A stretch of 64,000 nt of DNA, taken from the NCBI GenBank assembly GCA_943736015.1, contig OX031058.1, forward strand, positions 77,001 to 141,000, in the 5' to 3' direction. How positions within the stretch are numbered: the first letter of the stretch is position 1; the number at the start of each line of letters is the position of its first letter. The notes under the pieces were generated by a model. The model saw nothing but the letters and a program-made list of their open reading frames with translations. It was not told where the DNA came from and did no database searches. Source of the DNA: Tridacna crocea. Lineage: Eukaryota; Mollusca; Bivalvia; Cardiida; Cardiidae. Below are positions 9,935 to 44,518 of the stretch, piece by piece. Both the position numbers and the translations under genes were made by a program.

Positions 9935-12341
9935 TTAACTCTTTACCAAACAACAAAATATTAGATTATGCCAAATTGAAAGCACCAGCAGACAACAAAG
10001 TAAATGTGGCTAAAAAAGTAAAACATGTTATGAGAGGGGTAAAAAACATTGTGAGAAAAGAAGGAAATGCTGGTTATCAGCATTTTTAGCTCACCTGAGC
10101 ACGAAGTGCTCATGGTGAGCTATTGTGATCGTGCTGTGTCCGGCGTCCGTCGTGCGTCGTACGTCGTCAACTTTTTACCTTGTGTACGCTCTACAGGCCA
10201 CAGTTTTGGTCGGATACTCATGAAAGTTGGTCAGGATGTTTGTCTCGATGAAATCTCGGACGAGTTCGAAAATGGGTCATGTGGGGTCAAAAACTAGGTC
10301 ACTAGGTCAAATCTTAGAAAAACCTTGTGTACGCGCTAGAGGCCGCATTTTGAGTCCGATACTCATGAAAGTTGGTCAGGATGTTTGTCTCGATGATATC
10401 TCGGACGAGTTCGAAAATGGGTCATGTGGGGTCAAAAACTAGGTCACCAGGTCAAATCTTAGAAAAACCTTGTGTACGCTCTAGAGGCCGCATTTTGAGT
10501 GGGATACTCATGAAAGTTGGTGAGGATGTGTATCTCGATGATATCTCGGACGAGTTCGAAAGTGGGTCACGTGGGGTCAAAAACTAGGTCACCAGGTCAA
10601 ATGTTAGAAAAACCTTTTGTACGCTCTAGAGGCTACATTTTCAGTCGGATACTCATGAAAGTTGGTGAGGATGTTTGTCTGGATGATATTTTCGGACGAG
10701 TTCGAAAGTGGGTCACGTGGGGTCAAAAACTAGGTCACCAGGTCAAATCTTAGAAAAACCTTTTGTACGCTCTAGAGGCCACATTTTCAGTCGGATACTC
10801 ATGAAAGTTGGTGAGGATGTTTGTCTGGATGATATTTTCGGACGAGTTCGAAAGTGGGTCACGTGGGGTCAAAAACTAGGTCACCAGGTCAAATCTTAGA
10901 AAAACCTTTTGTACGCTCTAGAGGCCACATTTTCAGTGGGATACTCATGAAAGTTGGTGAGGATGTTTGTCTGGATGATATTTTCGGACGAGTTCGAAAG
11001 TGGGTCACGTGGGGTCAAAAACTAGGTCACCAGGTCAAATCTTAGAAAAACCTTTTGTACGCTCTAGAGGCCACATTTTCAGTGGGATACTCATGAAAGT
11101 TGGTCAGGATGTTTGTCTGGATGATATCTCGGACGAGTTTGAATATGGGTCACGTGGGGTCAAAAACTAGGTCACCAGGTCAAATCTTAGAAAAACCTTT
11201 TGTACGCTCTAGAGGCCACATGTTCAGTCGGATACTCATGAAAGTTGGTCAGGATGTTTGTCTGGATGATAACTCGGACGAGTTTGAAAATGGGTCACGT
11301 GGGGTCAAAAACTAGGTCACTAGGTCAAATCTTAGAAAAACCTTTTGTATGCTCTAGAGGCCACATTTTCAGTCGGATACTCATGAAAGTTGGTCAGGAT
11401 GTTTGCCTGGATGATATCTCGGACAAGAACGAAAATGGGTCATGTGGGGTCAAAAACTAGGTCACTAGGTCAAATGTTAGAAAAACCTTTTGTAGGCTCT
11501 AGAGGCCACATTTTCAGTCCGAAACTCTTGTAAGTTGGTCAGAATGTTTGTCTTGATGATATGTAAGACAGGTTTGAAAATGGGTCATTGGGGGTTAAAA
11601 ACTAGGTCACCAGGTCAAATCTTAGAAAAACCTTGTATATGCTCTGGATGCCACATTTTCAGTCCAACACTCTTGAAAATTAGTCAGAATGTTTGCCTTT
11701 ATAATATCTTGGATGAGTTTGAAAATGGGTCATGTAGGGTCAAAAACTGGGTCAATAGGTCAAATGTTATAAACACTTTTTGTATGCTCTGGAGGACACA
11801 TTTTCAGTCTGATACTCCTAAAACTTGTTCATAATAGTTGTCCTGGTGATACCTTGAATGAGTTTGAAAATGGGTCATGTGGAGTCAAAAACTAGGTCAA
11901 TGGGTCAAATATTAGAAAAACCTTGTGTACACTCCAGAGGCTACATTTTCTGCCTGATACTCTTCAGACTTGGTCAGAATGTTTGTTTTGGTGATGTCTC
12001 AAAAGAGTTTGATAATGGGTATTTGTCGGGTCCAAAACTAGGTCACTTGATGAAATCTTAGACAAACCTTTTGTACACTGTAGAGGCCACATTTTCAGTC
12101 CAATACTCATGAAACTTGGCCAGAATGTTTGTCTTATTGATATCTCAAAAATGTTTGATGATGGGTAATGTCTGATAAAAAACTAGGTCACTGGGAAACT
12201 AGATGGTGCATGTTTGGTCAATAAACTCAGGTGAGCGAATTCAGGGCCATCATGGCCCTCTTGTCTCCTATTCCCAAAATGTTTTCAAAAGGTGTCTTTC
12301 TCCAAGTCATTTAAACTCGGGATTGTATGGTAAAGGGTTAA
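9935..12341 (-). mobile_element. Family A MITE interrupted by a rolling-circle-like element
   Basis: The left half 9935-10086 (TTAACTCTTTACCAAACAAC up to GGTTATCAGCATTTT) and right half 12265-12341 (CTCCTATTCCCAAAATG to GGTAAAGGGTTAA) join into one normal MITE, TTAA at both ends. The inserted element is 10087-12264 and no base of the MITE is duplicated. Confidence 0.9.
10087..12264 (+). mobile_element. Helentron/HINE-like element, family 1, copy 1
   Basis: The 5' end TAGCTCACCTGAGCAC folds with GTGCTCATGGTGAGCT. It is followed by GTCCGTCGTGCGTCG-type sequence and 14 tandem units of about 145 bp (for example GGATACTCATGAAAGTTGG near 10211, 10356, 10502 and onward). The 3' end holds CTCAGGTGAGCG, complementary to the 5' stem, then the hairpin GGGCCATCATGGCCC and the terminus CTCTTGT. 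Subterminal inverted repeats, a 3' hairpin and insertion without duplication are the features of helentron-associated elements; mollusc elements of the pearl/CvA type have the same plan. The open frames in this array are side effects of the repeat period. Confidence 0.8.
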
Positions 12342-12371
12342 TCAAATTCATATTTACAATGGTTGACTTTT

Positions 12372-14394
12372 TAGCTCACCTGAGCACGAAGTGCTCATGG
12401 TGAGCTATTGTGATTATGCTGTGTCCGTCGTGCGTCGTCCGTCGTCAACTTTTTACCTTGTGTACGCTCTATAGGCCACAGTTTTTGTCGGATACTCATG
12501 AAAGTTGGTCAGGATGTATGTCTAGATGAAATCTCGCACGAGTTCGAAATTGGGTCATGTGGGGTCAAAAACTAGGTCACTAGGTCAAATCTTAGATAAA
12601 CCTTGTGTACGCTCTAGAGGCCACATTTTGAGTCGGATACTCATGAAAGTTGGTCAGGATGTTTGTCTCGATGATATCTCGGACAGGTTGGAAAATGGGT
12701 CACGTGGGGTCAAAAACTAGGTCACTAGGTCAAATCTTAGAAAAACCTTGTGTACGCTCTAGAGGCCACATTTTCAGTCAGATACTCGTGAAAGTTGGTC
12801 AAAATGTTTGTCTGGATGATATCTCGGATGAGTTCGAAAATGGGTCAAGTGGGGGTCAAAAACTAGGTCACCAGATCAAATCTTAGAAAAACCTTTTGTA
12901 CGCTCTAGAGGCCACATTTTCAGTCGGATACTCATGAAAGTTGGTCGGGATGTTTGTCTCGATGATATCTCAGACGAGTTTGAAAATGGGTCACGTGGGG
13001 TAAAAAGCTAGGTCACCAAGTCAAATCTTAGAAAAACCTTGTGTACGCTCTAGAGGCCACATTTTCAGTCGGATACTCATGAAAATTGGTCAGGATGTTT
13101 TTCTGGATGATATCTCAGACGAGTTCGAAAATGGGTCATGTGGGGTGAAAAACTAGGTCACCAGGTCAAATCTTAGAAAAACCTTGTGTACGCTCTAGAG
13201 GCCACATTTTCAGTCAGATACTCATGAAAGTTGGTCAGGATGTTTGTCTGGATGATATCTCGGACAAGATCGAAAATGGGTCATGTGGGGTCAAAAACTA
13301 GGTCACTAGGTCAAATGTTAGAAAAACCTTTTGTAGGCTCTAGAGGCCACATTTTCAGTCCGAAACTCTTGTAAGTTGGTCAGAATGTTTGTCTTGATGA
13401 TATCTCAGACAGGTTTGAAAATGGGTCATTTGGGGTTAAAAACTAGGTCACCAGGTCAAATCTTAGAAAAACCTTTTGTACGCTCTAGAGGTCACATTTT
13501 CAGTTGGATACTCATGAAACTTGGTCAGGATGTTTGTCTGGATGATATCTCAGACAAGATCGAAAATGGGTCATGTGGGGTCAAAAACTAGGTCACTAGG
13601 TCAAATGTTAGAAAAACCTTTTGTAGGCTCTAGAGGCCACATTTTCAGTCCGAAACTCTTGTAAGTTGGTCAGAATGTTTGTCTTGATGATATCTCTGAC
13701 AGGTTTGAAAATGGGTCATTTGGGGTTAAAAACTAGGTCACCAAGTCAAATCTTAGAAAAACCTTGTAGATGCTGTGGATGCCACATTTTCAGTCCAACA
13801 CTCTTGAAAATTAGTGAGAATGTTTGCCTTTATAATATCTTGGATAAGTTTGAAAATGGGTCATGTTGGGTCAAAAATTGGGTCAATAGGTCAAATGTTT
13901 TAAACACCTTTTGTATGCTCTGGAGGACACATTTTCAGTCTGATACTCCTAAAACTTGTTCATAATATTTGTCCTGGTGATACCTTGAATGAGTTTGAAA
14001 ATGGGTCATGTGGAGTCAAAAACTAGGTCAATGGGTCAAATATTAGAAAAACCTTGTGTACACTCTAGAGGCTACATTTCTGCCTGATACTCTTCAGACT
14101 TGGTCAGAATGTTTGTTTTGATGATGTCTCAAAAGAGTTTGATAGTGGGTAATTGTCGGGTCCAAAACTAGGTCACTTGATGAAATCTTAGAAAAACCTT
14201 TTGTACACTGTATAGGCCACATTTTCAGTCCAATACTCATAAAACTTGGCCAGAATGTTTGTCTTATTGATATCTCTAAAATGTTTGATTATGGGTAATG
14301 TCTGATAAAAAACTAGGTCACTGGGAAACTAGATGGTGCATGTTTGGTCAATAAACTCAGGTAAGCGATTTCAGGGCCATCATGGCCCTCTTGT
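12372..14394 (+). mobile_element. Helentron/HINE-like element, family 1, copy 2
   Basis: Same 5' stem and 3' hairpin-CTCTTGT end as copy 1, with 13 units of about 145 bp. The last five units (13666-14394) are nearly identical to 11535-12264 of copy 1, including unit-specific variants, while the 5' units differ in number. The two copies are separated by only 107 bp. Confidence 0.8.
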
Positions 14395-16427: not shown

Positions 16428-16431
16428 CTAG

Positions 16432-16637
16432 TGTTACGACAGACCACTCCTTCCTGCATGGTATACTCCCAATTTAAATACAATACCTGGCTACTGCGTC
16501 AGGGAGATATCTCTTTGGCTCAGTGGTTAGGGTATTGGCTTTGCGTCCGGGAGTTCGGAGTTCGAATCCCGCTCCGATCCTTATTTCTGCCATGCATTTA
16601 TTCATTTGTTTCTTTGTTACGGACTTCGTTCGTAAGA
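16432..16637 (+). repeat. 206-bp LTR-like unit, copy A (complete)
   Basis: Starts TGTTACGACAGACC and ends TTCGTTCGTAAGA, directly followed by a TGG that opens a tRNA complement, the position of a primer binding site. It contains an A-box-like TGGCTCAGTGG (from about 16518) and a B-box-like GAGTTCGAATCCC about 45 bp on, an internal Pol III promoter arrangement. The tRNA-like part does not fold cleanly (T-stem mismatches), so it is not a tRNA gene. If RNA starts at the TTAGGG at 16527 (see copies B and C), U3 is 95 bp and R-U5 is 111 bp. There is no coding capacity. Confidence 0.75.
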
Positions 16638-16689
16638 TGGTTCCGATGCCGGGAATCGAACCCGGGCCGCCTGGGTGAAAACCAGGAAT
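16638..16689 (-). other. tRNA-Glu 3' part with CCA, antisense
   Basis: The reverse complement reads from the anticodon stem (TTCCTGG), through a loop holding TTC, to CCCGGGTTCGATTCCCGG and an acceptor end finishing GGAACCA. CCA is added after transcription, so this derives from a mature tRNA. It abuts the U5 end of copy A exactly where a primer complement belongs, but extends 52 nt rather than the usual 18. Confidence 0.8.
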
Positions 16690-16732
16690 GGTAAACAGGA
16701 GGTCGGGGGTTCGATCCCCCCTGGAGCCTCCA
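16690..16732 (+). other. tRNA-Thr 3' piece with CCA
   Basis: Reads GGTAAACAGGAGGTC, then GGGGGTTCGATCCCCCC (T arm), then TGGAGCC-T-CCA. It begins in the anticodon loop, the usual cut site that makes tRNA halves, and ends with CCA. The isoacceptor call (Thr) is from general resemblance. The next bases (CA, then 16735) start an inverted LTR-like unit at its U5 end. Confidence 0.7.
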
Positions 16733-16734
16733 CA

Positions 16735-16845
16735 TCTTACGAACGAAGTCCGTAACAAAGAAACAAATGAATAAATGCATGGCAGAAATAAGGATCGGAG
16801 CGGGATTCGAACTCCGAACTCCCGGACGCAAAGCCAATACCCTAA
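16735..16845 (-). repeat. LTR-like unit, copy B: R-U5 only (111 bp)
   Basis: From TCTTACGAACG (U5 end) to ATACCCTAA, where complete copies continue CCACTGAGCC. It follows the tRNA-Thr 3' piece in primer-to-product orientation, so tRNA plus copy B has the layout of tRNA-primed minus-strand strong-stop DNA. Confidence 0.75.
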
Positions 16846-16956
16846 TCTTACGAACGAAGTCCGTAACAAAGAAACAAATGAATAAATGCATGGCAGAAAT
16901 AAGGATCGGAGCGGGATTCGAACTCCGAACTCCCAGACGCAAAGCCAATACCCTAA
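16846..16956 (-). repeat. LTR-like unit, copy C: R-U5 only (111 bp)
   Basis: A second 111-bp copy with the same two ends as copy B, joined directly to it. It then joins Gmr1-like integrase sequence at CTTTAAGG. Confidence 0.75.
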
Positions 16957-17152
16957 CTTTAAGGAATATCAAAACAAAGTCAATAGTCAAAGCTCTTATA
17001 AAATTTTTCACATTTGTTGGTCTTCCAAAATCAGTTCAGTCTGATCAAGGGTCAAATTTTATGTCTGGTATATTCCAACAGGTTATGCATGAATTAGGGA
17101 TCAAGCAATACAGGTCATCCGCTTATCACCCTGAAAGTCAAGGTGCTTTAGA
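16957..17152 (+). pseudogene. Gmr1-like integrase fragment
   Basis: Translates to the central integrase region, with SVQSDQGSNF (second catalytic Asp) and SSAYHPESQGALE (catalytic Glu). It is cut right after this and joined, with a few shared bases, to a primer-site segment. Confidence 0.85.
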
Positions 17153-17205
17153 AATTGGGGGCTCGTCCGGGATTGGAAACTAGACTAACGCATTGAAAGA
17201 AAATA
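17152..17205 (+). other. Primer-site and leader fragment of a Gmr1-like element
   Basis: GAAATTGGGGGCTCGTCCGG followed by GATTGGAAACTAGACTAACG, as in the full copies, but without the LTR that should precede it. Confidence 0.85.
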
Positions 17206-17388
17206 AGAAAATTCATGTTAAAATCAGTTGCATAACTTCTAGTAAACAGATTGTATAAAGGCCTGGAAACTTCCAGCACAATATTCCACAAGAGAGAATC
17301 CAGTTCTAAAAATAGCAACAGGGGAAAACCATTCAAAAATAGATACACACATGAACAAAGCTAATAATAACTGGGCATGTACATAACA
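17206..17388 (-). repeat. Partial LTR of a Gmr1-like element
   Basis: Matches the U3-side part of the LTRs, ending ATGTACATAACA at 17388, in minus orientation. Confidence 0.85.
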
Positions 17389-17720
17389 CTTCCCCCCTTG
17401 AAAAGAAAAAGAAAGGTTTATGAAATAAATCTTTCTTTTTTGCAATATTATTTATATACACGTATATGACACTTTAACTGAAGTATTACAGAGGAAATAA
17501 CAAACACAAATATTAATTATTTAAGACTAATGAAAATAATCAAGGTAATGAAAGTACAATTTAAAAGAAAAAACAGTTTAAACTTGATTTAGGGAAAAAT
17601 GACTATTGGAATTTCAAACTCTTGAAAGAGCATCTGGTATAATGTTATCTTTCCCTTTTATGTGTCTTATGTCAAGATTAAACTCTTGAAGCAATGAACT
17701 CCACCTCAGTAATCTTTGAT
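17389..17720 (-). pseudogene. Polypurine tract, 3' UTR and RNase H end, Gmr1-like
   Basis: CTTCCCCCCTTGAAAAG is the complement of the polypurine tract. The segment then runs through the 3' UTR into the C-terminal RNase H sequence (LDIRHIKGKDNIIPDALSR). It breaks at about 17720 and switches to integrase sequence. Confidence 0.85.
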
Positions 17721-17778
17721 CATCAGCTGGGACATCAAATGGTCGCCATTTTCTCATAAGAATCCCATTCTTTATATC
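17721..17778 (-). pseudogene. Short integrase N-terminal fragment
   Basis: 58 bp encoding NGILMRKWRPFDVPAD on the minus strand. It also joins a plus-strand LTR end (CGTAACAG) at about 17779. Confidence 0.8.
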
Positions 17779-18114
17779 GTAACAGAAATTGGGGGCTCGT
17801 CCGGGATTGGAAAATAGACTAACGTATTTGTTTTCCATTTTGGGATTAACCATCGATTGGAAACTAGACTAACGCATTCGTTTACTAATCAGTAATTATA
17901 ATACAATTTTGTACTTGAATCCAGCAACAAACAAACATGTCTTTTGACTTAGATAAATTTACGGCTGAACCATCTGTGGAGTTATTGAATTTGGGTAAAA
18001 AGACTGATTTGCTTAATCTTGCTAAGCACTATAAATTGTCTGAAATAAAATCTTCAATGCGTAAACATGAAATTAAGAACATTTTGGTACAATATTTTGT
18101 TGATGAGGAAAGGG
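17779..18114 (+). pseudogene. LTR end, tRNA-Pro site, leader and gag start
   Basis: CGTAACA (last 7 bp of an LTR), then the tRNA-Pro site TGGGGGCTCGTCCGGGAT (about 17791-17808), the leader with its doubled ATTGGAAA motif, and gag from ATG 17937 (MSFDLDKFTAEPS) to VDEE, where it is cut and replaced by LTR-like sequence. Confidence 0.88.
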
Positions 18115-18211
18115 TTAGGGTATTGGCTTTGCGTCCGGGAGTTCGGAGTTCGAATCCCGCTCCGATCCTTATTTCTGCCATGCATTTATTCATTTGTTTC
18201 TTTGTTACGGA
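18115..18211 (+). repeat. LTR-like unit, copy E: starts at TTAGGG
   Basis: The sense copy of R-U5, beginning at the same TTAGGG at which B and C end (plus GG shared with gag) and stopping 14 bp short of the U5 end. Seven unassigned bases (TTCCTGG) precede the resumption of Gmr1-like sequence. Confidence 0.75.
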
Positions 18212-18218
18212 TTCCTGG

Positions 18219-20019
18219 GATTAAAAAGTCTCTTGATCCCAGTTTGTCTGATACTCAGACAGACTCGTCAATGTCTTGTCATTCACCACCACGGTCTATT
18301 GACCAAGGTCATGACACGCTGTCAAAGTCACAGCTTATCCAGGAACAGCAGACTGATCCTGAGATTTCAAAGTTAATTTTTAGGGCTTTACCTGAAGATG
18401 AAATTTCACAGGTCCCAATGTGTTACTATATAAAGAATGGGATTCTTATGAGAAAATGGCGACCATTTGATGTCCCAGCTGATGAGGAATGGGCTGTTTA
18501 CCACCAAATTGTGGTTCCAAAGTCATATCGTCATGAAATACTAAGTATAGCCCATGAAAGTCCTATGTCAGGTCATCTAGGTATAAACAAGACCTATCAC
18601 AAAATTATTACTCATTTTTATTGGCCTGGTCTCAAATCAGATGTCTCTAAATATTGTAAAACTTGCCATACATGTCAAATGGTAGGTAAACCCAACCAAA
18701 CCATTCCCAAAGCTCAATTACAACCTATTCCTGCTTTTGATGAACCTTTCAGTAGGATACTTATAGATTGTGTTGGTCCTTTACCTCGAACCAAGTCAGG
18801 AAATGAGTATCTCTTAACAATTATGTGTACTTCTACACGTTTTCCTGAAGCTATTCCTTTAAGGAACATCAAAACAAAGTCCATAGTCAAAGCTCTTTTA
18901 AAATTTTTCACATTTGTTGGTCTTCCAAAATCAGTTCAGTCTGATCAAGGGTCAAATTTTATGTCTGGTATATTCCAACAGGTTATGCATGAATTAGGAA
19001 TCAAGCAATATAGGTCATCCGCCTATCACCCTGAAAGTCAAGGTGCTTTAGAAAGATTTCACCAGACATTAAAAAATATGATAAGATCATATTGCTTTGA
19101 CACTGAAAAAGATTGGGATGAGGGCATCCATTTGTTACTATTTGCAGCCAGAGAATCTGTACAAGAATATTTTGGTTTCAGCCCTTTTGAATTAGTTTTT
19201 GGCCATTCTGTTCGCGGACCTTTAAAACTTTTGAAAGAGAAATTTCTCTCAAATGATGAAACATCTTTGAATTTACTACAGTATGTTTCTGAATTCAGAA
19301 ATAGACTGTCTAGGGCATGTGAGGTTGCTAGGTCTAATCTTAAAACGTCTCAGGGCAAAATGAAAGCAAGATATGACAACCATGTTATAGATAGAAAATT
19401 TAAACCAGGTGACAAAGTCCTTGCTCTTTTGCCAATACCTGGCAGACCTTTACAGGCAAGATATTTTGGACCCTACACTATTGACAAGAAAACAAGTGAT
19501 TTAAACTATATAATTAATACTCCAGGAAGGCGTAAAAACAAACAAATGTGTCATGTAAATATGTTAAAGGAATACTTTGACAGAGATAGCTCTATTTCAA
19601 AACCAATTACAGTTGTAAACACTGTCCCACAAGAATCAAGTGTATTTGAAATTGAAGTAAATTCTGACTTTAATGATAAATCTGATCCTGGTCCATCTAA
19701 ACTTGAGAATTCTGATATTTTGAGAAACCTCGACAACAAACTTTCTCACTTGGAACCATCGCAGCAGGAAGAGCTGAAACAGTTGATACATGAATATGAA
19801 CATTTATTTCCTGATATCCCCACAAGAACAGATAAAATCTATCATGATGTCATTGTGGAAGATTCTAAACCAATAAAGCAACATCCATATAGGATGAATC
19901 CTTTGAAACAGAAATACCTCCAAGATGAAGTAAAATACTTACTGGAAAATGACTTTATTGAACCTAGCCAGAGTAATTACAGTTCACCATGTATATTAGT
20001 ACTTAAATCAAATGGAACC
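18219..20019 (+). pseudogene. Gmr1-like pol fragment: integrase then RT start
   Basis: An open frame runs from before 18219 to 20043 (658 residues if begun at ATG 18067, though the part before 18219 is gag in another frame plus LTR-like sequence). It covers the linker (DPSLSDTQTDSSMS), the integrase zinc site (HLGINKTYH...CKTCHTC), catalytic Asp in LIDCVGPL, Asp in VQSDQGSNF, Glu in PESQGALE (D-x35-E), a GPY/F-type module (FGPYTIDKK) and then the RT N-terminus (HPYRMNPLKQKYL, SSPCILV). It ends at about 20019 inside RT, cut by LTR-like copy F. It lacks the frameshift present in the 41543 copy. Integrase directly before RT confirms that this order is ancestral to the family and not a local rearrangement. 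Confidence 0.92.
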
Positions 20020-20022
20020 ACA

Positions 20023-20227
20023 TCTTACGAACGAAGTCCGTAACAAAGAAACAAATGAATAAATGCATGGCAGAAATAAGGATCGGAGCGGGATTCGAAC
20101 TCCGAACTCCCGGACGCAAAGCCAATACCCTAACCACTGAGCCAAAGAGATATCTCCCTGACGCAGTAGCCAGGTATTGTATTTAAATTGGGAGTATACC
20201 ATGCAGGAAGGAGTGGTCTGTCGTAAC
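20023..20227 (-). repeat. 206-bp LTR-like unit, copy F (complete)
   Basis: From TCTTACGAACG to CTGTCGTAACA, inverted relative to copy A, including the A and B box-like sequences. CA precedes its U5 end, as in copy B. Confidence 0.8.
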
Positions 20228-20283
20228 ATGGCTACTGCGTCAGGGAGATATCTCTTTGGCTCAGTGGTTAGGGTATTGGCTTT
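20228..20283 (+). repeat. LTR-like unit, copy G (internal part)
   Basis: TGGCTACTGCGTCAGGGAG to TATTGGCTTT in sense orientation. It joins the tRNA-Pro piece through shared GCG. Confidence 0.75.
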
Positions 20284-20321
20284 GCGAGAGGTCCCGGGTT
20301 CAAATCCCGGACGAGCCCCCA
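20284..20321 (+). other. tRNA-Pro 3' piece with CCA
   Basis: GCGAGAGGTCCCGGGTTCAA, then ATCCCGGACGAGCC-C-CCA. It starts at the 3' side of the anticodon stem and ends with CCA. It extends past the 18-nt primer region into bases absent from the Gmr1-like primer site, so it comes from the tRNA itself. It abuts the U5 end of copy H. Confidence 0.88.
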
Positions 20322-20527
20322 TCTTACGAACGAAGTCCGTAACAAAGAAACAAATGAATAAATGCATGGCAGAAATAAGGATCGGAGCGGGATTCGAACT
20401 CCGAACTCCCGGACGCAAAGCCAATACCCTAACCACTGAGCCAAAGAGATATCTCCCTGACGCAGTAGCCAGGTATTGTATTTAAATTGGGAGTATACCA
20501 TGCAGGAAGGAGTGGTCTGTCGTAACA
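20322..20527 (-). repeat. 206-bp LTR-like unit, copy H (complete)
   Basis: From TCTTACGAACG to GTCGTAACA, forming the right end of the mosaic and followed by CTAG. Confidence 0.8.
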
Positions 20528-20531
20528 CTAG

Positions 20532-20756: not shown

Positions 20757-21022
20757 CCGCCCGGGTGGCTCAGTGGTGAGCGTGTCGGACTCCTGACCTG
20801 GTGGTTGTGAGTTCGATACCCGGTTGAGGCGAACTTTCTTTCCGGCGTACTTTCGCCTCTCACCACTGCTGTAGCATGTGAGAAAAGTAGACGGTGGCTT
20901 TGGAAAGAAAGTAGTGTTAGTACCGGTGTGAGAAAGCCAGGAAACACATGTGCATCACCGACCGCCATGATATGACCTTAGCTGTTAAAGTGGCGTTAAA
21001 CCACAACACAACCAACCAACAA
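20757..21022 (+). mobile_element. tRNA-derived SINE, second family
   Basis: The head GGTGGCTCAGTGGTGAGCG (A box) and GAGTTCGATACC (B box) form a tRNA-like 5' end. The body carries a TTTCTTTCCGG segment, and the tail GTTAAAGTGGCGTTAAACC is followed by an (AACC)n-like end. Unrelated to the 2301 and 22172 SINEs. Confidence 0.8.
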
Positions 21023-22171: not shown

Positions 22172-22492
22172 AAGGCCGAGCTGTGGAAGCTCAGTCGGTT
22201 GCAGGCAGGACTTGATAACACCAGGTCCAGGGTTCGATCCCTGGCTGCGGCCCCTTGCTTGGCCAATTTGTTTCCCAGGATTGATTACAGTAACTGTGAC
22301 AGGACTCATTCCTCTCCCACGGCTGACCATTGTTTAGACGATGATCGTATGGGAAAGCAGCCGATGGCTTGGAAAAAAAATTGTGCAAAGTACTGGTTAA
22401 AGAAACTTCAGGAATGTATGGATAGGTGCAATGGCCATCACAACATAACTGAAATAATGTTGAAAAGATGAAAACACCATACAATTAATCAA
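22172..22492 (+). mobile_element. tRNA-derived SINE (best copy)
   Basis: GGAAGCTCAGTCGGTTGCAGG (A box) and GGTTCGATCCCTGGC (B box) make a clear tRNA-like head. The body contains GGGAAAGCAGCCGATGGC, and the tail ends CACCATACAATTAATCAATC. Same family as 2301-2602. Confidence 0.85.
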
Positions 22493-29519: not shown

Positions 29520-31726
29520 TTATCCCCCGCCGAAAGGCGGCGGGGGATATGGAAATAGTCTCTGTCCGTCCTTCCGTCCTTCTGTCCCACATTTTTGTCC
29601 GGAGCATATCTCCAAAAGTATTTGAGATATCATCTTCAAACTTCACAAGTGGATAGATCTCATTAAGGAGGCGTGCAGTGCACAAGAACCATAACTCTAT
29701 CTTCAGTATTTTTGGAGTTATTGCCCTTTGAACACTTTTTTTCTGGAATTTTTGTCCGGAGCATATCTCCAAAAGTATAAAAGCTAGGAACTTGAAACTT
29801 CACACACATATAGAACTCATTGAGGAGAAGTGCAGTGCACAAGAACCATAACTCTATCTTCAGTATTTTTGGAGTTATTGCCCTTTGTTATTTTTACTTT
29901 GGATTTTTGTACGGAGCATATCTCCAAAAGTATAAAAGCTAGGAACTTGAAACTTCACACATATATATAATACACATTGAGGAGAAGTGCAGTGCACAAG
30001 AACCATAACTCTGTCTTCAGTATTTTTGGAGTTATTGCCCTTTGTAAATTTTAACTTTGGATTTTTGTCCGGAGCATATCTCCAAAGGTATAAAAGCTAG
30101 GAACTTGAAACTTCACACACATATAGAACTAATTGAGGAGAAATGCAGTGCACAACAACCATAACTCTGTCTTCAGTATTTTTGGAGTTATTGCCCTTTG
30201 TAAATTTTAACTTTGGATTTTTGTCCGGAGCATATCTCCAAAAGTATAAAAGCTAGGAACTTGAAACTTCACACACATATAGAACTCATTGAGGAGGAGT
30301 GCAGTGCACAAGAACCATAACTCTATCTTCAGTATTTTTGGAGTTATTGCCCTTTGTAAATTTTTACTTAGGATTTTTGTCCGGAGCATATCTCCAAAAG
30401 TATTTGAGATATCATCTTCAAACTTCACAAGTGTATAGATCTCATTAAGGAGGCGTGCAGTGCACAAGAACCATAACTCTATCTTCAGTATTTTTGGAGT
30501 TATTGCCCTTTGTACACTTTTTTTCTGGAATTTTTGTCCGGAGCATATTTCCAAAAGTATAAAAGCTAGGAACTTGAAACTTCACACACATATAGAACTC
30601 ATTGAGGAGAAGTGCAGTGCACAAGAACCATAACTCTATCTGAAGTATTTTTGGAGTTATTGCCCTTTGTAAATTTTAACTTTGGATTTTTGTCCGAAGC
30701 ATATCTCCAATAGTTTAAAAGCTAGGAACTTGAAACTTCACACATATATAATACACATTGAGAAGTGCAGTGCACAAGAACCATAACTCTGTCTTCAGTA
30801 TTTTTGGAGTAATTGCCCTTTGTAAATTTTAACTTTGGATTTTTGTCCGGAGCATATCTCCAAAGGTATAAAAGCTAGGAACTTGAAACTTCACACACAT
30901 ATAGAACTAATTGAGGAGAAGTGCAGTGCACAACAACCATAACTCTGTTTTCAGTATTTTTGGAGTTATTGCCCTTTGTAAATTTTAACTTTGGATTTTT
31001 GTCCGGAGCATATCTCCAAAAGTATTAAAGCTAGGAACTTGAAACTTCACACACATATAGAACTCATTGAGGAGAAGTGCAGTGCACAAGAACCATAACT
31101 CTATCTTCAGTATTTTTGGAGTTATTGCCCTTTGTAAATTTTTACCTAGGATTTTTGTCTGGAGCATATCTCCAAAAGTATAAAAGCTAGGAACTTGAAA
31201 CTTCACACACATATAGGACTCATTAAGGAGAAATGCAGTGCATAACAACCATAACTCTATCTTCAGTATTTTTGGAGTTATTGCCCTTTGTAAATTTTTT
31301 CTTAGGATTTTTGTCCGGAGCATATCTCCAAAAGTATAAAAGCTAGGAACTTGAAACTTCACACATATATAGAACTCAATGAGGAGAAGTGCAGTGCAAA
31401 AGAACCATAACTCTATCTTCAGTAATTTTGGAGTTATTGCCCTTTGTAACTTTTTACTTAGGATTTTTGTCTGGAGCATATCTCCAAAAGTATAAAAGCT
31501 AGGAATTCGAAACTTCACACACATATAGAACTAATTTAGGAGAAGTGCAGTGCACAAGAACTATAACTCTATCTTCAGTATTTTTGGAGTTATTGCCCTT
31601 TGTAAATTTTTACTTTGAATTTTTGTTTCGCACATTTCCATTTAGATTCACAGGCTTTTTTTGACTGATTACCCTTTGATGAATTTATCCTGTTCTGGAA
31701 CAAGTGCTAGTTTATTTTTCATACTT
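29520..31726 (+). mobile_element. Helentron/HINE-like element, family 4, long array
   Basis: The 5' end TATCCCCCGCCGAAAGGCGG pairs with itself (GGCGGCGGGGGATA), then CTGTCCGTCCTTCCGTCC. About 14 units of roughly 155 bp follow, each with TTTTGTCCGGAGCATATCTC, TAGGAACTTGAAACTTCACA and GAACCATAACTCTATCTTCA. No 3' hairpin end is seen before the next 5' end at 31727. The long minus-strand open frames here repeat with the units and are not genes. Confidence 0.75.
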
Positions 31727-37963: not shown

Positions 37964-38199
37964 TTAACCCTTTCCCAAACAATCCCAGATTTTTATGGGT
38001 CTGGAATAGTAGCCTTTTTTTTTTGAAAATATTGTGGGAAAAGGAGACAATACTGGTAACCCAGCATTTGCTCCTTTTCCCACAATGTTTTCTACCCTAT
38101 CATAGACAGAAATCATCTTTTCACCAAGAGTTGAATTCTTGTCTGCAAATGCTTTGAATTTGGTCTAGTCCAAAAGTTTATTGTTTGGTAAAGGGTTAA
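37964..38199 (+). mobile_element. TTAA-type MITE (family A)
   Basis: TTAACCCTTTCCCAAACAAT to TTGGTAAAGGGTTAA, 236 bp; very close to the 5724 copy. Confidence 0.88.
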
Positions 38200-38669
38200 A
38201 AAGGCAAGGGACAATGTTGGTCATTTGAAATAAAATGTATGTAACAGTTGGCTTTGACTGTATGAGCTCTGCATTGTTAAAAGGGGGCTTAATGCATCTG
38301 CCAAAAAAAGTATCCACAAATGTCAGCGTGTGCTGTCCACACAGGATGACTTTGGTCAAAAGTTTTTATACTTTTGGTCAATTCTCTGCATGTCAAAAGA
38401 CTATTCTACCTCCAGATCCAGTCAACTTCTGGATAAAATAAATGTATCTGTAATTATATGATAATTAATTTGGTGTAATGCTTTGTTAGAGATGTATAAA
38501 GCCCCCTTTTCAAAGAGCATGGCTCAATTATGTACAAGTCATGCTCTGAAAAAAGGGGCTTAACGCTTTACCTGATATGCCAATTTTAGGCTCTTCCATT
38601 TCAGCAGCAAGTAAAGATACATGTATGATGTCAAAAATATGGACAAATGAGGATACAAATATCTGATTG
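38200..38669. repeat. Family C repeat
   Basis: Includes GGGGGCTTAATGCATCTGCC and an inverted pair, AAAGCCCCCTTTTCAAAGAG with CATGCTCTGAAAAAAGGGGC (38499-38563). Shared with 20532-20715 and 45119-45340. Confidence 0.5.
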
Positions 38670-38756
38670 AATGGAAAACTTGGTGGGTAAAGGAGAAATT
38701 GCTCGTTACGAGCAATTTCTCCTTTTCCTACAATGTTTTCAAAAGCTGCGAATTGT
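38670..38756 (-). mobile_element. MITE A2 copy, part on left side of retrotransposon
   Basis: Carries the A2 hairpin (GAGAAATTGCTCGTTACGAG then CAATTTCTCC). It continues at 45082-45118 (GAGTATCTATGGAGTAAAGG to TTAA). The retrotransposon at 38757-45077 split it. Confidence 0.75.
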
Positions 38757-39296
38757 TGTTACGAGTCAGGCGTAACTAGAAAGTAGAAGCCAGCAACAAA
38801 CGATAACAATTAACAGAATTTATTAACAAAAATATCAAATAAACATGTATTAACTAGTGAACCCCGAGATGTAAAAAGCTTTTCCTTTTATAATAACAGG
38901 GAAAGTTCCAGAAAATTCATGTTAAAATCAGTTGCATAACTTCTAGCAATCAGATTATAATTAGATTATAATTCCGTTAAATACATAGAAAACAAGTTTT
39001 TTTTACTCCAAAACACCATGTGTATCTTCCATCATAAATACTGTATCGTGTATGATGTTGTCGTCATATTGTGTTATGGATATTGTTTTGTATGTATGAA
39101 AGAAAAAAAAAAAAAAACCTGTCAAAATGACAAAAAAAAAAAACTTCTAGTAATCAGATTGTAAAAAGGCCCGGAAACTTCCAGCACAATATTCCACAAG
39201 AGAGAATCCAGTTCTAAAAATAGTAACAGGGGAAAACCATTCAAAAATAGATACACACATGAACAAAGCTAGGAATAACTGGGTATGTACATAACA
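38757..39296 (-). repeat. 3' LTR, with 223-bp deletion and poly(A) insertion
   Basis: TG...CA ends intact (TGTTATGTAC to CTCGTAACA on the minus strand). Compared with the 559-bp 5' LTR it lacks the part matching 44607-44829 (223 bp) and gains 204 bp (insert plus one copy of its target duplication), giving 540 bp exactly. Confidence 0.9.
38957..39141 (+). mobile_element. Retroposed poly(A)-tailed insert in the 3' LTR
   Basis: 185 bp ending in an A run, with a second A15 run inside (about 39103-39117). Flanked by a 19-bp duplication, AACTTCTAGCAATCAGATT (38938-38956) and AACTTCTAGTAATCAGATT (39142-39160). A long target duplication plus poly(A) is the mark of LINE-driven retroposition. The source (CACCATGTGTATCTTCCATC, TGTATCGTGTATGATGTTG) looks like the 3' end of a LINE or mRNA. 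Confidence 0.85.
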
Positions 39297-39307
39297 CTTC
39301 CCCCCTT
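39297..39307 (-). other. Polypurine tract
   Basis: AAGGGGGGAAG on the minus strand, directly before the 3' LTR, the expected primer for plus-strand DNA. The 3' UTR 39308-39519 has no gene. Confidence 0.85.
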
Positions 39308-39519
39308 GAAAAGAAAAAGAAAGGTTTATGAAATAAATCTTTCTTTTTTGCAATATTATTTACATACATGTATATGACACTTTAACTGAAGTATACATAG
39401 GAAATAACAAACTCAAATATTAATTATTTCAGACTAATGAAAATAGTCAAGGTAATGAAAGTACAATTTAAAAGAAAAAACAGTTTAAACTTGATTTAGG
39501 GAAAATGACTATCGGAATT

Positions 39520-40338
39520 TCAAACTCTTGAAAGAGCATCTGGTATAATGTTATCTTTCCCTTTTGTGTGTCTTATGTCAAGATTAAACTCTTGAAGCAA
39601 TAAACTCCACCTCAGTAATCTTTGATTCTTATTCTTAAGTTTGTGTAGAAAACTTAAAGGGTTATGATCACTGAATACAACAATTGGTGAAGTTGAAGAA
39701 GTTAAATTAACTTCGAACTGTTGGATTGCCAGAATTAAAGCAAGACACTCTTTTTCTATGGTAGAGTAATTTTTCTGATGTTTGTTAAATTTCTTAGAAA
39801 AGTAACAAACTGGATGATCAATACCATTATTATCTTCTTGTAAAAGAACAGCACCAATACCAACATCACTTGCATCAACAGCTAATTTGAAACATTTGTC
39901 AAAATCAGGTGCCAAGAGAACTGGTGCACTCTTTAGTATGGCTTTTAGACGATCAAATGCATCTTGACATTTGTCATTCCATTTGAACTTTGTGCTTTTC
40001 TTTAGTAAATTTGTTAAAGGTTCAGCAATACCTGAGAAATTTTTACAGAATTTCCTATAGTAGCCAGCCATACCAAGAAATCGCATCAGCTGTCTTTTAC
40101 ATTTAGGCACAGGAAACTCAGAGATAGCATTGACCTTAGCTTCTAAAGGTTTAACTTGACCCTGTCCCACAAGATGTCCTAGAAATGTTACAGTAGCATG
40201 ACAAAATTCAGTTTTTGCAAGATTCACAGTCAGTTTCGCTTTACTGAGTCTGTCGAAGAACTTCCTGATTCTTTGAAGGTGGTCACTCCAACTGTCTGAG
40301 TAGATGATGACGTCGTCAATATATGCATCACAGCCGTC
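39520..40338 (-). CDS. Gmr1-like pol, RT C-terminal part and RNase H (after stop codon)
   Basis: In the same frame as 40339-41511 but separated from it by the TAA at 40339-40341. It starts with the RT catalytic motif YIDD (40312-40323), then LGHLVG (RT motif E region), the connection region and a Gypsy-type RNase H: LAVDASDVGIGAVLL (Asp), YSTIEKECLAL (Glu), VVFSDHNPL (Asp) and a closing DALSRV. The first internal ATG gives 235 residues, but the true start is the upstream polyprotein. RNase H degrades the RNA strand of the hybrid. The stop leaves this part untranslated unless read through. Confidence 0.93.
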   Translation of the reverse strand, partial: DGCDAYIDDVIIYSDSWSDHLQRIRKFFDRLSKAKLTVNLAKTEFCHATVTFLGHLVGQGQVKPLEAKVNAISEFPVPKCKRQLMRFLGMAGYYRKFCKNFSGIAEPLTNLLKKSTKFKWNDKCQDAFDRLKAILKSAPVLLAPDFDKCFKLAVDASDVGIGAVLLQEDNNGIDHPVCYFSKKFNKHQKNYSTIEKECLALILAIQQFEVNLTSSTSPIVVFSDHNPLSFLHKLKNKNQRLLRWSLLLQEFNLDIRHTKGKDNIIPDALSRV

Positions 40339-41548
40339 TTATCCACATATAACGTTGTTTATAAGCCGCTGAAACGTTGCAGGAGAATTTTTCATCCCAA
40401 ACGGCATAACTTTGTATTGGTACAGACCGTTTGGAGTAGCAAAGGCTGATACTTCTTTTGCTCTATCAGTCAGTGGAACTTGCCAGAATCCTTTTAGCAG
40501 GTCAAATTTGGTGACATATTTAGAATTTCCAACTTTGTCAATACAGTCATCAATTCTTGGTATTGGAAAAGAGTCTGTTTTTGTCACAGAGTTCACCTTA
40601 CGATAGTCAGTACACATTCTATAAGTTCCATTCGATTTGGGTACTAATATACATGGTGAACTGTAATTACTCTGGCTAGGTTCAATAAAGTCATTTTCCA
40701 GTAAGTATTTTACTTCATCTTGGAGGTATTTCTGTTTCAAAGGATTCATTCTATATGGATGTTGCTTTATTGGTTTAGAATCTTCCACAATGACATCATG
40801 ATAGATTTTATCAGTTCTTGTGGGGATATCAGGAAATAAATGTTCATATTCATGTATCAACTGTTTCAGCTCTTCCTGTTGTGATGGTTCCAAGTGCGAA
40901 AGTTTGTTGTTAAGGTTTCTCAAAATATCCGAATTCTCAAGTTTAGATGGACCAGGATCAGATTTATCATTAAAGTCAGAATTTACTTCAATTTCAAATA
41001 CACTTGATTCTTGTGGGACAGTGTTTACAACTGTAATTGGTTTTGAAATAGAGCTATCTCTGTCAAAGTATTCCTTTAACATATTTACATGACACATTTG
41101 TTTGTTTTTACGCCTTCCTGGAGTATTAATTATATAGTTTAAATCACTTGTTTTCTTGTCAATAGTGTAGGGTCCAAAATATCTTGCCTGTAGAGGTCTG
41201 CCAGGTATTGGCAAAAGAGCAAGGACTTTGTCACCTGGTTTAAATTTTCTATCAATAACATGGTTGTCATATCTTGCTTTCATTTTGCCCTGTGACGTTT
41301 TAAGATTAGACCTAGCAACCTCACATGCCCTAGACAGTCTATTTCTGAAGTCAGAAACATACTGCAGTAAATTCAAAGGTGTTTCATCATTTGAGAGAAA
41401 TTTCTCCTTCAAAAGTTTTAAAGGTCCACGAACAGAATGGCCAAAAACTAATTCAAAAGGACTGAAACCAAGAGATTCTTGTACAGATTCTCTGGCTGCA
41501 AATAGTAACAAATGGATGCCCTCATCCCAATCTTTTTCAGTGTCAAAA
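40339..41548 (-). CDS. Gmr1-like pol, integrase C-terminus and RT (after frameshift)
   Basis: The frame resumes near 41548 after a one-base insertion. The part from ATG 41511 is 390 residues. It holds the integrase C-terminal GPY/F-type module (ARYFGPYTIDKKTSDLNYI), a linker, then RT: HPYRMNPLKQKYL, YRMCTDYRKVN, KFDLLKGFWQVPL (first catalytic Asp), MPFGMKNSPATFQRL. It stops at TAA 40339-40341, where reading on gives D-G-C-D-A then YIDD, so one base change truncates RT just before its catalytic pair. The mosaic copy at 18219-20019 has the same integrase-linker-RT order. Confidence 0.95.
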
Positions 41549-44275
41549 GCAATATGACCTTATCATATTTTTTAATGTCTGGTGAAATCTTTCTAAAGCA
41601 CCTTGACTTTCAGGGTGATAGGCGGATGACCTATATTGCTTGATTCCTAATTCATGCATAACCTGTTGGAATATACCAGACATAAAATTTGACCCTTGAT
41701 CAGACTGAACTGATTTTGGAAGACCAACAAATGTGAAAAATTTTATAAGAGCTTTGACTATTGACTTTGTTTTGATGTTCCTTAAAGGAATAGCTTCAGG
41801 AAAACGTGTAGAAGTACACATAATTGTTAAGAGATACTCATTTCCTGACTTGGTTCGAGGTAAAGGACCAACACAATCTATAAGTATCCTACTGAAAGGT
41901 TCATCAAAAGCAGGAATAGGTTGTAATTGAGCTTTGGGAATGGTTTGGTTGGGTTTACCTACCATTTGACATGTATGGCAAGTTTTACAATATTTAGAGA
42001 CATCTGATTTGAGACCAGGCCAATAAAAATGATTAATAATTTTGTGATAGGTCTTGTTGATACCTAGATGACCTGACATAGGACTTTCATGGGCTATACT
42101 TAGTATTTCATGGCGATATGACTTTGGAACCACAATTTGGTGGTAAACAGCCCATTCATCATCAGCTGGGACATCAAATGGTCGCCATTTTCTCATAAGA
42201 ATCCCATTCTTTATATAGTAACACATTGGGACCTGTGAAATTTCATCTTCAGGTAAAGCCCTAAAAATTAATTTTGAAATCTCAGGATCAGCTTGCTGTT
42301 CCTGGATAAGCTGTGACTTTGACAGCGTGTCGTGACCTTGGTCAATAGACCGTGGCGGTGAATGACAAGACATTGACGAGTCTGTCTGAGTATCAGACAA
42401 ACTGGGATCAAGAGACTTTTTAATCTCATTATTGAAATATGGACAGATAAAAGTATCCGTCAAGTCAATGTCAGAGTTTGAGTTTTTCAAAATGGCCTTT
42501 TTAGCCATAGCTCGGGTAACTGCACAAGAAGGATACAAGTCAGGAATTTCCTGCTCGTTAGGGTCATCTGTTTGACCTATATTTGGTGTGTCAGTTACAA
42601 GTGGATTAACCACAACCTTATCTCCAGCTAAGTCATTGCCTAGCAGTAAATGGACACCTTTAAAGGGTAAGGAAGGTTTAATACCAATAACCACAAGCCC
42701 AGTAACCAAATCTGATGACAAATTAACGTAATGGAGAGGGATATTAACAGTTCCACACTCTACACCCTGAATAAGGACACTAGTACCGGAAGAAGTCTTC
42801 TCAGAAAAAGGCAGTATATCTGCTAAAATAAGAGATTGAGAAGCTCCTGTGTCTCTTAAAATTTTAATAGGGGTAGGTGGGCAATTATCACCTGAAAGTG
42901 ATACAAAACCATTCAACATAAATGGTTCAGAAATCTCCATCGCAGAATCAGACTTGGGTTTTGTGACTATGTCAATTGTATTAGATTTAATAGAAGACTG
43001 TGGCCTTGGTCTAAGAGTGGTGAGCCCTGTTGGTTTGGCTTCATCACTTTCTAACTTCCTTTTTAATTTCAAACATTCAGAAACAAGGTGACCAGGTTTC
43101 TTACAATAGTTACAAGTGGGTCGAGATAAGGGGTATTGACTTTTGGTTTCACTAGTAGAATTGGGTTTGGGTGTATTGGATTGACTGGGCATGCCAGATG
43201 AATTACCAGACGTAGATTTATTTTGGGGATGTGAGGAAGTAGGTTTGGGTTTAGCAATAAAAGAAACTTTATGTGTAAGGTAGTAATTATCAGCCAGACG
43301 AGCTGCTTCTTCTAAAGTTTCAACTTGTTTTTCGTCTAAGAATGTCTTAACATCAAATTGAATACAACGTTTGAATTCTTCAACTAACATAAGTTGTCTT
43401 AGTTTATCATAATTTTGGTCTATTTTCTTAGAACAGCACCATCTTTCAAATAACTGTTCTTTGTTTCTAGCAAATTCAACATGAGTCTGGTTAGAATCTT
43501 TTTTACAATTTCTAAATTTTTGTCTATATGCTTCTGGGACCAGCTCATAACCTTTGAGAATAAGTTCTTTAACAGTCTCATAATGATGACATTGTTCAAC
43601 ACCTAGTTGTGTATAAATTTCACGAGCTTTGCCTATCAAAACACTTTGCAGAAGCAAAGTCCAGTGCTCTTTTGGCCAATTTAAGTTTTCTGCAACTTTT
43701 TCAAAGTGTAGGAAGTATTTATCAACTTCTTTTTCTTGAAATGGAGGAACAAGCCTAATATGTTTTGTAACATCGAAATTGCATTCAATCTTTTGCTTGG
43801 GCTGATTTGCTCTTTCTTGCATTTCTATTTCCCTCATTCTTAATTGAAATTCTCTCTCCTTCTCTCTCTCTTCCCTTTCCCTTTCTTCTCTTTCCCTTTC
43901 TCTTTCTTCTCTCTCCCTTTCTCTTTCCCTTTCTCTTTCCTTCTCTCTCTCTACTCTTTCTTCTCTCTGTCTTTCCCTTTCTCTTTCCTTCTCTCTTTCC
44001 TGAATTTCTAATTGTCTGATCTGAAGTTTCAATTCAAGTTCTTTTGAACTTGAAACTGACTGAACGTCAATTATCAGGGAAAGAGCATTTTCATTAAAAA
44101 TTTCCTCATCAACAAAATATTGTACCAAAATGTTCTTAATTTCATGTTTACGCATTGAAGATTTTATTTCAGACAATTTATAGTGTTTAGCAAGATTAAG
44201 CAAATCGGTCTTTTTACCTAAATTCAATAACTCCACAGACGGTTCAGCCGTAAATTTATCTAATTCAAAAGACAT
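41543..44275 (-). CDS. Gmr1-like gag, protease and integrase (910 residues)
   Basis: Starts at ATG 44273-44275 (MSFELDKFTAEPS). About residues 85-165 are an Arg/Glu-rich repeat longer than in copy 1. The capsid-like part follows. A CCHC knuckle (CNYCKKPGHLVSEC) is at 388-401, and an aspartic protease active site (LRDTGASQS) has Asp at 475. Integrase has a zinc site (GHLGINKTYH...CKTCHTC), Asp800 (LIDCVGPL), Asp859 (VQSDQGSNF) and Glu895 (D-x35-E). The frame ends at residue 910 because one extra T near 41549 (GCTTTTGAC against GCTTTGAC in the mosaic copy) shifts it. Without that base and the later stop, gag through RNase H would be one frame of about 1584 residues with no frameshift signal between gag and pol. 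Confidence 0.95.
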   Translation of the reverse strand: MSFELDKFTAEPSVELLNLGKKTDLLNLAKHYKLSEIKSSMRKHEIKNILVQYFVDEEIFNENALSLIIDVQSVSSSKELELKLQIRQLEIQEREKERERERQREERVEREKEREREREREREEREREREEREREEREKEREFQLRMREIEMQERANQPKQKIECNFDVTKHIRLVPPFQEKEVDKYFLHFEKVAENLNWPKEHWTLLLQSVLIGKAREIYTQLGVEQCHHYETVKELILKGYELVPEAYRQKFRNCKKDSNQTHVEFARNKEQLFERWCCSKKIDQNYDKLRQLMLVEEFKRCIQFDVKTFLDEKQVETLEEAARLADNYYLTHKVSFIAKPKPTSSHPQNKSTSGNSSGMPSQSNTPKPNSTSETKSQYPLSRPTCNYCKKPGHLVSECLKLKRKLESDEAKPTGLTTLRPRPQSSIKSNTIDIVTKPKSDSAMEISEPFMLNGFVSLSGDNCPPTPIKILRDTGASQSLILADILPFSEKTSSGTSVLIQGVECGTVNIPLHYVNLSSDLVTGLVVIGIKPSLPFKGVHLLLGNDLAGDKVVVNPLVTDTPNIGQTDDPNEQEIPDLYPSCAVTRAMAKKAILKNSNSDIDLTDTFICPYFNNEIKKSLDPSLSDTQTDSSMSCHSPPRSIDQGHDTLSKSQLIQEQQADPEISKLIFRALPEDEISQVPMCYYIKNGILMRKWRPFDVPADDEWAVYHQIVVPKSYRHEILSIAHESPMSGHLGINKTYHKIINHFYWPGLKSDVSKYCKTCHTCQMVGKPNQTIPKAQLQPIPAFDEPFSRILIDCVGPLPRTKSGNEYLLTIMCTSTRFPEAIPLRNIKTKSIVKALIKFFTFVGLPKSVQSDQGSNFMSGIFQQVMHELGIKQYRSSAYHPESQGALERFHQTLKNMIRSYCF

Positions 44276-44495
44276 GTTTGTATGTTGCTGGATTCAAGTA
44301 CAAAACTGTATTATAATTACAGATTAGTAAAATGTAGGAATAAAAAATTCAATAAACCTAGACTGTCTGTAATAAATTTTGACTAACAGGATGTATTAGA
44401 TTTATTCAAATTGTGAAAAGCAAACGTCTATGTCTTATTTTTTCCAATCGATGGTTAAACCCAAAAGGAAAACGAATGCGTTAGTCTATTTTCCA

Positions 44496-44513: not shown

Positions 44514-44518
44514 ATTTC

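Follow-up and report, generated by a model that had tools for sequence, protein, structure and literature searches.

Chimeric insertions in Tridacna crocea tie a Helenus retrotransposon to a Gypsy family and seem to record read-through of tRNA primers

A mosaic insertion in contig OX031058.1

The analysed stretch of the Tridacna crocea genome (the window) is 64,000 nucleotides long and covers positions 77,001 to 141,000 of contig OX031058.1. Positions 16432–20527 of the window are occupied by one insertion of about 16 pieces, which is flanked on both sides by CTAG. The pieces are derived from a 206-bp unit of the Helenus group of terminal-repeat retrotransposons in miniature (TRIMs), from a Gypsy-type element, and from the 3' parts of tRNA-Glu, tRNA-Thr, and tRNA-Pro. 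Most of the interior of the insertion is Gypsy sequence. Together with a second locus described below, the insertion ties Helenus to a Gypsy family, and the two chimeras appear to record read-through of tRNA primers. The layout of the insertion, with LTR standing for long terminal repeat, is as follows.

16428–16431: target duplication CTAG, left
16432–16637, plus strand: complete Helenus LTR, copy A, with the U3 end outermost
16488–16529, plus strand: hairpin of 42 nt (LTR 57–98), which overlaps the A box
16516–16526, plus strand: A-box-like motif TGGCTCAGTGG, read in the sequence
16560–16569, plus strand: B-box-like motif GTTCGAATCC, read in the sequence
16638–16689, minus strand: tRNA-Glu(UUC) nt 24–73 and CCA, joined to the U5 end of copy A
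16690–16732, plus strand: tRNA-Thr(AGU) nt 34–73 and CCA; base 34 is G, in the gene A
16733–16734: CA, two unexplained bases between the CCA of tRNA-Thr and the LTR end
16735–16845, minus strand: Helenus LTR 96–206, resembling minus-strand strong-stop DNA
16846–16957, minus strand: second Helenus LTR 95/96–206, one mismatch
16958–17154, plus strand: Gypsy integrase piece, 3% different from the repeat at 18858–19054
17150–17194, plus strand: Gypsy primer site (tRNA-Pro) and leader, with a short overlap with the preceding piece
17195–17205: filler of 11 nt
17206–17720, minus strand: Gypsy LTR start, polypurine tract, and RNase H end, antisense
17716–17784, minus strand: Gypsy integrase start, antisense
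17785–18111, plus strand: Gypsy primer site, leader, and gag start
about 18113–18211, plus strand: Helenus LTR piece starting at 94–96
18216–20018, plus strand: Gypsy integrase and start of reverse transcriptase, open frame
20023–20228, minus strand: complete Helenus LTR, copy F, preceded by CACA
20229–20286, plus strand: Helenus LTR 57–114
20283–20321, plus strand: tRNA-Pro(AGG) nt 38–73 and CCA; the first 4 bases are common to the LTR piece
20322–20527, minus strand: complete Helenus LTR, copy H, with the U3 end outermost
20528–20531: target duplication CTAG, right

The three complete copies of the 206-bp unit are identical, and four others are partial. The two outermost LTR copies lie in opposite orientations, so that their U3 ends (TGTTACGA) face outward. 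A single pair of 4-bp target-site duplications (TSDs) encloses the whole mosaic, and the inner LTR junctions adjoin other pieces instead of duplicated target. The Gypsy pieces at 16958–17154 and 18858–19054 represent the same region and differ by 3%. Therefore, they did not arise by local duplication, and at least two versions of Gypsy contributed to the insertion. All three complete LTRs contain an A at LTR position 40, which is found in two of 58 other LTRs, and thus they share one source. A genome-wide search for the strong-stop concatemer pattern returned one match, the window locus itself, and none elsewhere. The single TSD pair, the presence of at least two Gypsy versions, the shared A40, and the uniqueness of the composites favour a single product of one particle over stepwise insertion. 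An earlier note on this DNA had described the span as three complete copies (A, F, and H) of an LTR-like unit joined to pieces of tRNAs. The copies are real, and the span as a whole is a single insertion.

The best microRNA matches in the region (20127–20274) fall on a hairpin formed by inverted LTR pieces, and were rejected as evidence. The junction bases 18209–18218 (GGATTCCTGG) are identical to tRNA-Glu around nt 22–31, which is short enough for a chance match. Two more tRNA-like sequences, resembling short interspersed nuclear elements (SINEs), are located just downstream of the insertion at 20757–20840 and 22178–22255.

The Helenus family

The 206-bp unit was used to search the genome (1.05 Gb in 31 contigs). 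The search gave 42 matches, and 40 of 1,090 first-look candidates were scored; the counts of the unit are therefore lower bounds biased to young copies. The anatomy of the element was determined from 27 distinct insertions, all of them outside the window and among the best-scoring young copies. The complete element is 528 bp long, and is composed of two 206-bp LTRs separated by a 116-bp spacer. At least two LTRs are present in 26 of the 27 insertions, the remaining one is a solo LTR, and all 27 are flanked by 4-bp TSDs. A primer site (TGGGGGCTCGTCCGGGAT) complementary to the 3' end plus CCA of the genome's own tRNA-Pro is located directly 3' of the LTR. It is recognisable in 26/26 insertions with at least two LTRs, with one substitution or a small deletion in a few copies. 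The spacer is non-coding, has a length of 116 bp in 26 of 29 cases, and in all displayed copies except one terminates ahead of the next LTR in the polypurine tract AAGAGGGGGTG, which has small changes in a few copies. The 206-bp unit is the true LTR of a Helenus TRIM, as the LTR-like character proposed in the earlier note had implied. LTR pairs, primer sites, and 4-bp TSDs rule out an ordinary tRNA SINE, and a transposon with terminal inverted repeats is ruled out, since the inverted ends are LTR ends. The LTR end with its primer site had no matches in the bacterial and archaeal contig collection or in the viral one.

The family is of a kind already known. TRIMs with tRNA-like sequence in the LTR were described as Helenus (TRIMp3) by Kojima in 2024 (PMC10886601). 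The paper lists 51 families from pteriomorph bivalves, with 4-bp TSDs in animals and with primer sites for tRNA-Lys, -His, -Ile, -Pro, -Glu, or -Ser in bivalves (PMC10886601). The earlier note had considered an LTR unit with a tRNA-like promoter new for an animal, a view that the 2024 publication with its bivalve families supersedes. The family of the window shares with published Helenus the A and B boxes, the short non-autonomous form, the primer site, the polypurine tract, and the 4-bp TSD. A text search of the literature for Helenus TRIMs yielded PMC10886601 alone. Cassandra elements of plants similarly have a promoter of RNA polymerase III (Pol III) type in the LTR and form tandem LTR arrays, but they carry 5S-like sequence, whereas the LTR studied here is tRNA-like (PMC7215508). 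Tandem Helenus arrays were observed at L011 (with L012, at C5:37.666 Mb), which contains four LTRs, and at L057, which contains three. They resemble arrays reported for Cassandra and for zebrafish LTR-11_DR.

The A-box-like and B-box-like motifs of the LTR, pointed out in the earlier note, are present on direct reading. The Rfam tRNA model does not reach its gathering score on the LTR, and its weak matches cover the captured tRNA pieces; the tRNA-like region of the LTR itself is thus degenerate. Rfam scans of the window gave no match to 5S rRNA-like sequence. The sense strand of one 322-bp unit lacks TTTT (0.016 by dinucleotide shuffles, 0.062 by simple shuffles), which is weakly consistent with Pol III transcription of Helenus. 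The 42-nt hairpin of the LTR has a folding energy of -22.7 kcal/mol as RNA and -4.3 kcal/mol with DNA parameters. Three junctions of the mosaic are positioned at LTR 94–96 and a fourth at LTR 57; these positions correspond to the two edges of this hairpin. Accordingly, the junctions represent either 5' ends of RNA or stops at the hairpin. A tRNA-type Pol III start is expected upstream of the A box (LTR 85–95), but the three strong-stop-like ends coincide with the end of the A box. Position 19 of the spacer, just past the 18-nt primer site and opposite A58 of the tRNA, has the variants G and C versus T in 26 copies, which are too few to judge.

Captured tRNAs, the Gypsy element, and a second mosaic

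The tRNA pieces were compared with the genome's own tRNA genes. The tRNA-Glu(UUC) piece is antisense, begins at A24, and matches over 52 nt including CCA. The tRNA-Thr(AGU) piece matches over 42 nt including CCA, starting from G35. Its one differing base, at 16690, corresponds to base 34, which is G in the piece and A in all seven distinct tRNA-Thr genes displayed. The tRNA-Pro(AGG) piece matches over 39 nt including CCA, back to U38, and its first four bases, TGCG, are also present in the adjoining LTR piece. CCA is absent after every intact tRNA gene displayed, and the CCA-tailed pieces therefore derive from mature tRNA. The Glu part matches tRNA genes with an E-value of 1.5e-17, and Glu and Thr occur together only in the window among 19 genome matches, which excludes chance. 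Neither ARAGORN, run with bacterial settings, nor Rfam at gathering scores gave any match in the window. The Glu and Pro pieces adjoin an LTR end without a gap, whereas Thr is separated from it by two bases. Thus, the three tRNA identities given in the earlier note hold, and all three pieces end in CCA. Its placement of the pieces at the primer position of the U5 end holds for Glu and Pro, but Thr is offset by CA. Since CCA is at or two bases from a U5 end, and the Pro case recurs at another locus, the pieces are not random filler.

On the LTR-forward strand, Glu and Pro are tRNA complements located 3' of a full LTR, an arrangement matching plus-strand strong-stop DNA that over-copied its primer. 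The Thr piece precedes a shortened LTR (96–206), as in minus-strand strong-stop DNA. The Pro piece ends one base away from G37; for the Thr piece, the distance to C32 is one or two bases. G37 is typically 1-methylguanosine (m1G) (PMC5939049). Human tRNA-Thr carries 3-methylcytidine (m3C) at position 32, given G35 and U36, and m3C stops or misleads reverse transcriptase (PMC11506809). The Pro and Thr ends would fit stops at m1G37 and m3C32, and the G at Thr base 34 would fit the reading expected of inosine.

The behaviour of human immunodeficiency virus 1 (HIV-1), described in a 2026 review, is comparable. Its plus-strand synthesis normally ends before 1-methyladenosine 58 (m1A58) of the primer, after 18 nt; unmodified primers are copied further, with stops also at position 37, and only products that end at 58, 55, or 54 are useful (PMC13191261). 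As in HIV-1 read-through, the plus strand in the mosaic seems to have passed m1A58 and stopped at later modifications. HIV-1 products whose copying ended at position 37, or ran to the 5' end of the tRNA, are described as unable to serve (PMC13191261), whereas here such products appear to be fixed in an animal genome. Two loci, L040 (C2:2574277) and L041 (C6:29171442), contain tRNA-Glu-like scraps that are not intact genes. The scrap of L041 is followed by CCA, and its downstream sequence resembles L040; the two perhaps represent a tRNA-Glu SINE.

The Gypsy element is also present elsewhere in the window, in two further copies.

38757–45077, minus strand: Gypsy copy with two LTRs and TSD ACAA
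1–1811, minus strand: third Gypsy copy, 5' part, cut by the window edge

The domain order of the copy at 38757–45077 is SCAN-type gag, integrase, reverse transcriptase, and RNase H. The Pfam domain rve, followed by RVT_1 and RNase H, was identified in successive minus-strand open reading frames at 44275–39520. The order of integrase before reverse transcriptase is known from the Gmr1 clade (PMC6238403, PMC8220671), which this Gypsy resembles in domain order. The Gypsy termini TGTTATG..TCGTAACA resemble the Helenus termini TGTTACG..TCGTAAGA. Both elements have the same tRNA-Pro primer site, with TGG next, similar polypurine tracts, and 4-bp TSDs. The Gypsy family is abundant in public data: a protein search scored 7979 candidates, of which 2398 had E <= 0.001. 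In the copy at 38757–45077, the 3' LTR (38910–39140) differs from the 5' LTR by a T-rich insert and a deletion.

A 28-mer of tRNA-Pro, searched with at most one mismatch, is present at seven places. Four of them are intact genes and one is a gene copy broken at its 5' end; the other two are the window locus and a second mosaic, L079 (on C6). L079 starts with CTGT, 5 nt of the U3 terminus, and AA. These are followed by tRNA-Pro from nt 38 with CCA, a Gypsy LTR end running backwards, and a complete Helenus, whose U3 terminus at the right end is followed by CTGT. The tRNA has a clear start at nt 38 and one mismatch near its 3' end. The Gypsy piece runs back to exactly 30 nt below TATAAAAG and then passes through C residues into Helenus. 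Transcription by RNA polymerase II (Pol II) is expected to start at the TATA box plus 30, and the end of the Gypsy piece at the expected start is an internal check that the pieces mark strong-stop DNA. The two loci are independent joinings of Helenus, the same Gypsy, and tRNA-Pro, and both mosaics seem to have been inserted by two inverted U3 ends.

A 26-mer of tRNA-Pro, with two mismatches allowed, is present at six places, namely the two mosaics, L082, L085, L083, and L084. Ordinary Gypsy copies whose leader differs from the pattern by a single base account for L082 and L085. L083 (C4:2619777) was rejected as an extended capture, as its Pro sequence has primer-site length only. The Helenus of L083 is folded back near LTR 73, within the loop of the LTR hairpin, which suggests that the hairpin turns the polymerase round at this locus. 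L084 (C12:4415121) contains a nearly full-length tRNA-Pro with CCA before a sequence that by eye resembles a diverged Helenus U5; BLAST at 1e-4 gave no match of this sequence to the LTR.

The window contains other repeats. A common hairpin repeat (GGAAAAGGAGAAAATGCTGG..) similar to miniature inverted-repeat transposable elements is found at 38026–38736, at 46391–48278, and near many other loci. Long tandem arrays with units of about 145–167 bp are located at 10177–14276, 29591–31626, and 62588–63820.

Origin of the mosaics

Based on these structures, the mosaic is probably one aberrant product of reverse transcription, and Helenus is likely to have been moved in trans by the Gypsy element that has integrase before reverse transcriptase. 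We assign this explanation a probability of about 0.78. Helenus RNA, Gypsy RNAs, and host tRNAs would be packed together in one particle. Minus strands would be primed at the Helenus U5 border by tRNA-Pro and, mistakenly, by tRNA-Glu and tRNA-Thr. The plus strand would copy the LTR and then enter the still-attached tRNA beyond m1A58. Copying of Pro would halt before m1G37, and copying of Thr before m3C32, after inosine 34 had been read as G. The over-long ends would be incapable of the normal second strand transfer, and the U5 end would be spoiled for integrase. Because such ends are unusable, we propose that the DNA escaped this dead end through repeated template switching or joining. The Gypsy integrase would then insert the DNA through two inverted U3 ends.

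Several observations speak against parts of this mechanism. The Glu piece begins at A24, an end that has no explanation by a modification, and we know of no blocking modification at this position. The start of the Pro piece in the window is fixed only to nt 38–42, the G at Thr base 34 is a single junction base that may be filler, and the presence of the modifications is extrapolated from other organisms. In L084, an older capture, copying continued through nt 37 nearly to the 5' end of the tRNA. A stop at 37 is therefore not absolute, and two of the three extended Pro captures end there. The Glu and Thr junctions were found at the window locus only, and the TSD of L079 depends on just 5 nt of U3 terminus at the left. 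The CA at the Thr junction, the CACA at copy F, and the 11 nt at 17195–17205 are unexplained. Regarding the helper, five bases (GAAAT) separate the Gypsy LTR from its primer site and none do so in Helenus. The Gypsy LTR ends in CA and that of Helenus in GA, and the LTRs are otherwise unlike. The comparison took in one Gypsy family with a tRNA-Pro site. Finally, the mosaic is known here from the assembled sequence alone.

Host end joining may instead have linked fragments of failed complementary DNA, that is, tRNA-tailed strong-stop DNAs and Gypsy pieces, before integration, and template switching would then not be needed. Several junctions share 0–2 nt and contain short fillers, as end joining would produce, and the head-to-head arrangement of the LTR–Glu and Thr–LTR pieces suits the ligation of two tRNA-tailed ends. 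However, other junctions share 4–6 nt (TAGAAA, GTAACA, TGCG), and in L079 the sequence crosses from the point where Gypsy RNA is expected to begin to the primer site of Helenus, in the manner of a strand jump. We consider end joining a possible but rather unlikely origin.

Independent insertions at one spot, followed by chromosomal rearrangement, are very improbable. Nested elements are common, and 16 pieces in both orientations look rearranged, but one TSD pair surrounds the whole, the inner LTR junctions lack duplicated target, the rare A40 is present in all full LTRs, and rearranged tRNA genes could not give CCA-tailed tRNA. It is hardly credible that the Helenus family uses several tRNA primers, as the earlier note had supposed from the three tRNAs at the U5 border of the window locus, even if bivalve Helenus families as a group have primer sites for several tRNAs (PMC10886601). 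The Pro site was found in all 26 examined insertions with at least two LTRs. Exact LTR ends (CTTCGTTCGTAAGA) followed by TGG and a non-G base occur 13 times in the genome. One is the window locus, four are mutated Pro sites, and eight, by eye, run into ordinary flanking DNA. Thus, among these exact ends, from which diverged copies are excluded, a tRNA other than Pro follows 0/12 outside the window locus, and the bases after U5 ends give no further loci of the kind the earlier note had envisaged. Amplified or fold-back reads typically give rise to inverted chimeras, but an artefact of assembly or amplification has next to no likelihood in view of the exact 4-bp TSD, the CCA tails, and a second locus of the same logic.

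Complex LTR insertions in Triticeae were attributed by Sabot and Schulman (2007) to abnormal template switching (PMC1950507). They share with the mosaic a single TSD pair and near-identical outer LTRs. However, they consist of three LTRs in the same direction, and the available part of the paper mentions no tRNA, whereas the mosaic has inverted outer LTRs, many pieces, three tRNAs, and two element families (PMC1950507). The Helenus paper, in its abstract, Results, Discussion, legends, and tables, makes no mention of tRNA captures (PMC10886601). At the level of titles and abstract openings, we found no published case of a TRIM with captured tRNAs, in a search whose coverage leaves out most subscription journals. 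The Gypsy helpers of animal Helenus were previously inferred from similar primer sites (PMC10886601), whereas the two mosaics contain physical junctions between Helenus and one Gypsy family.

It is conceivable, at somewhat less than even odds, that the two mosaics are snapshots of the particle contents of one Gypsy family. They would name the helper, document non-cognate priming by tRNA-Glu and tRNA-Thr beside tRNA-Pro, and preserve tRNA modifications as DNA, with copying that passed m1A58 and halted at m1G37 and m3C32 and with inosine 34 kept as G. Since over-read primer tails would block the U5 end, genomic entry of such products would require two U3 ends. Mosaic insertions provide a searchable test for helpers: in any genome that has Helenus, one can look for LTR ends that continue into a helper element or into a piece of CCA-tailed tRNA. 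The mosaics would also reveal the sites at which reverse transcriptase stalls on tRNA from DNA alone, in an animal that is hard to study.

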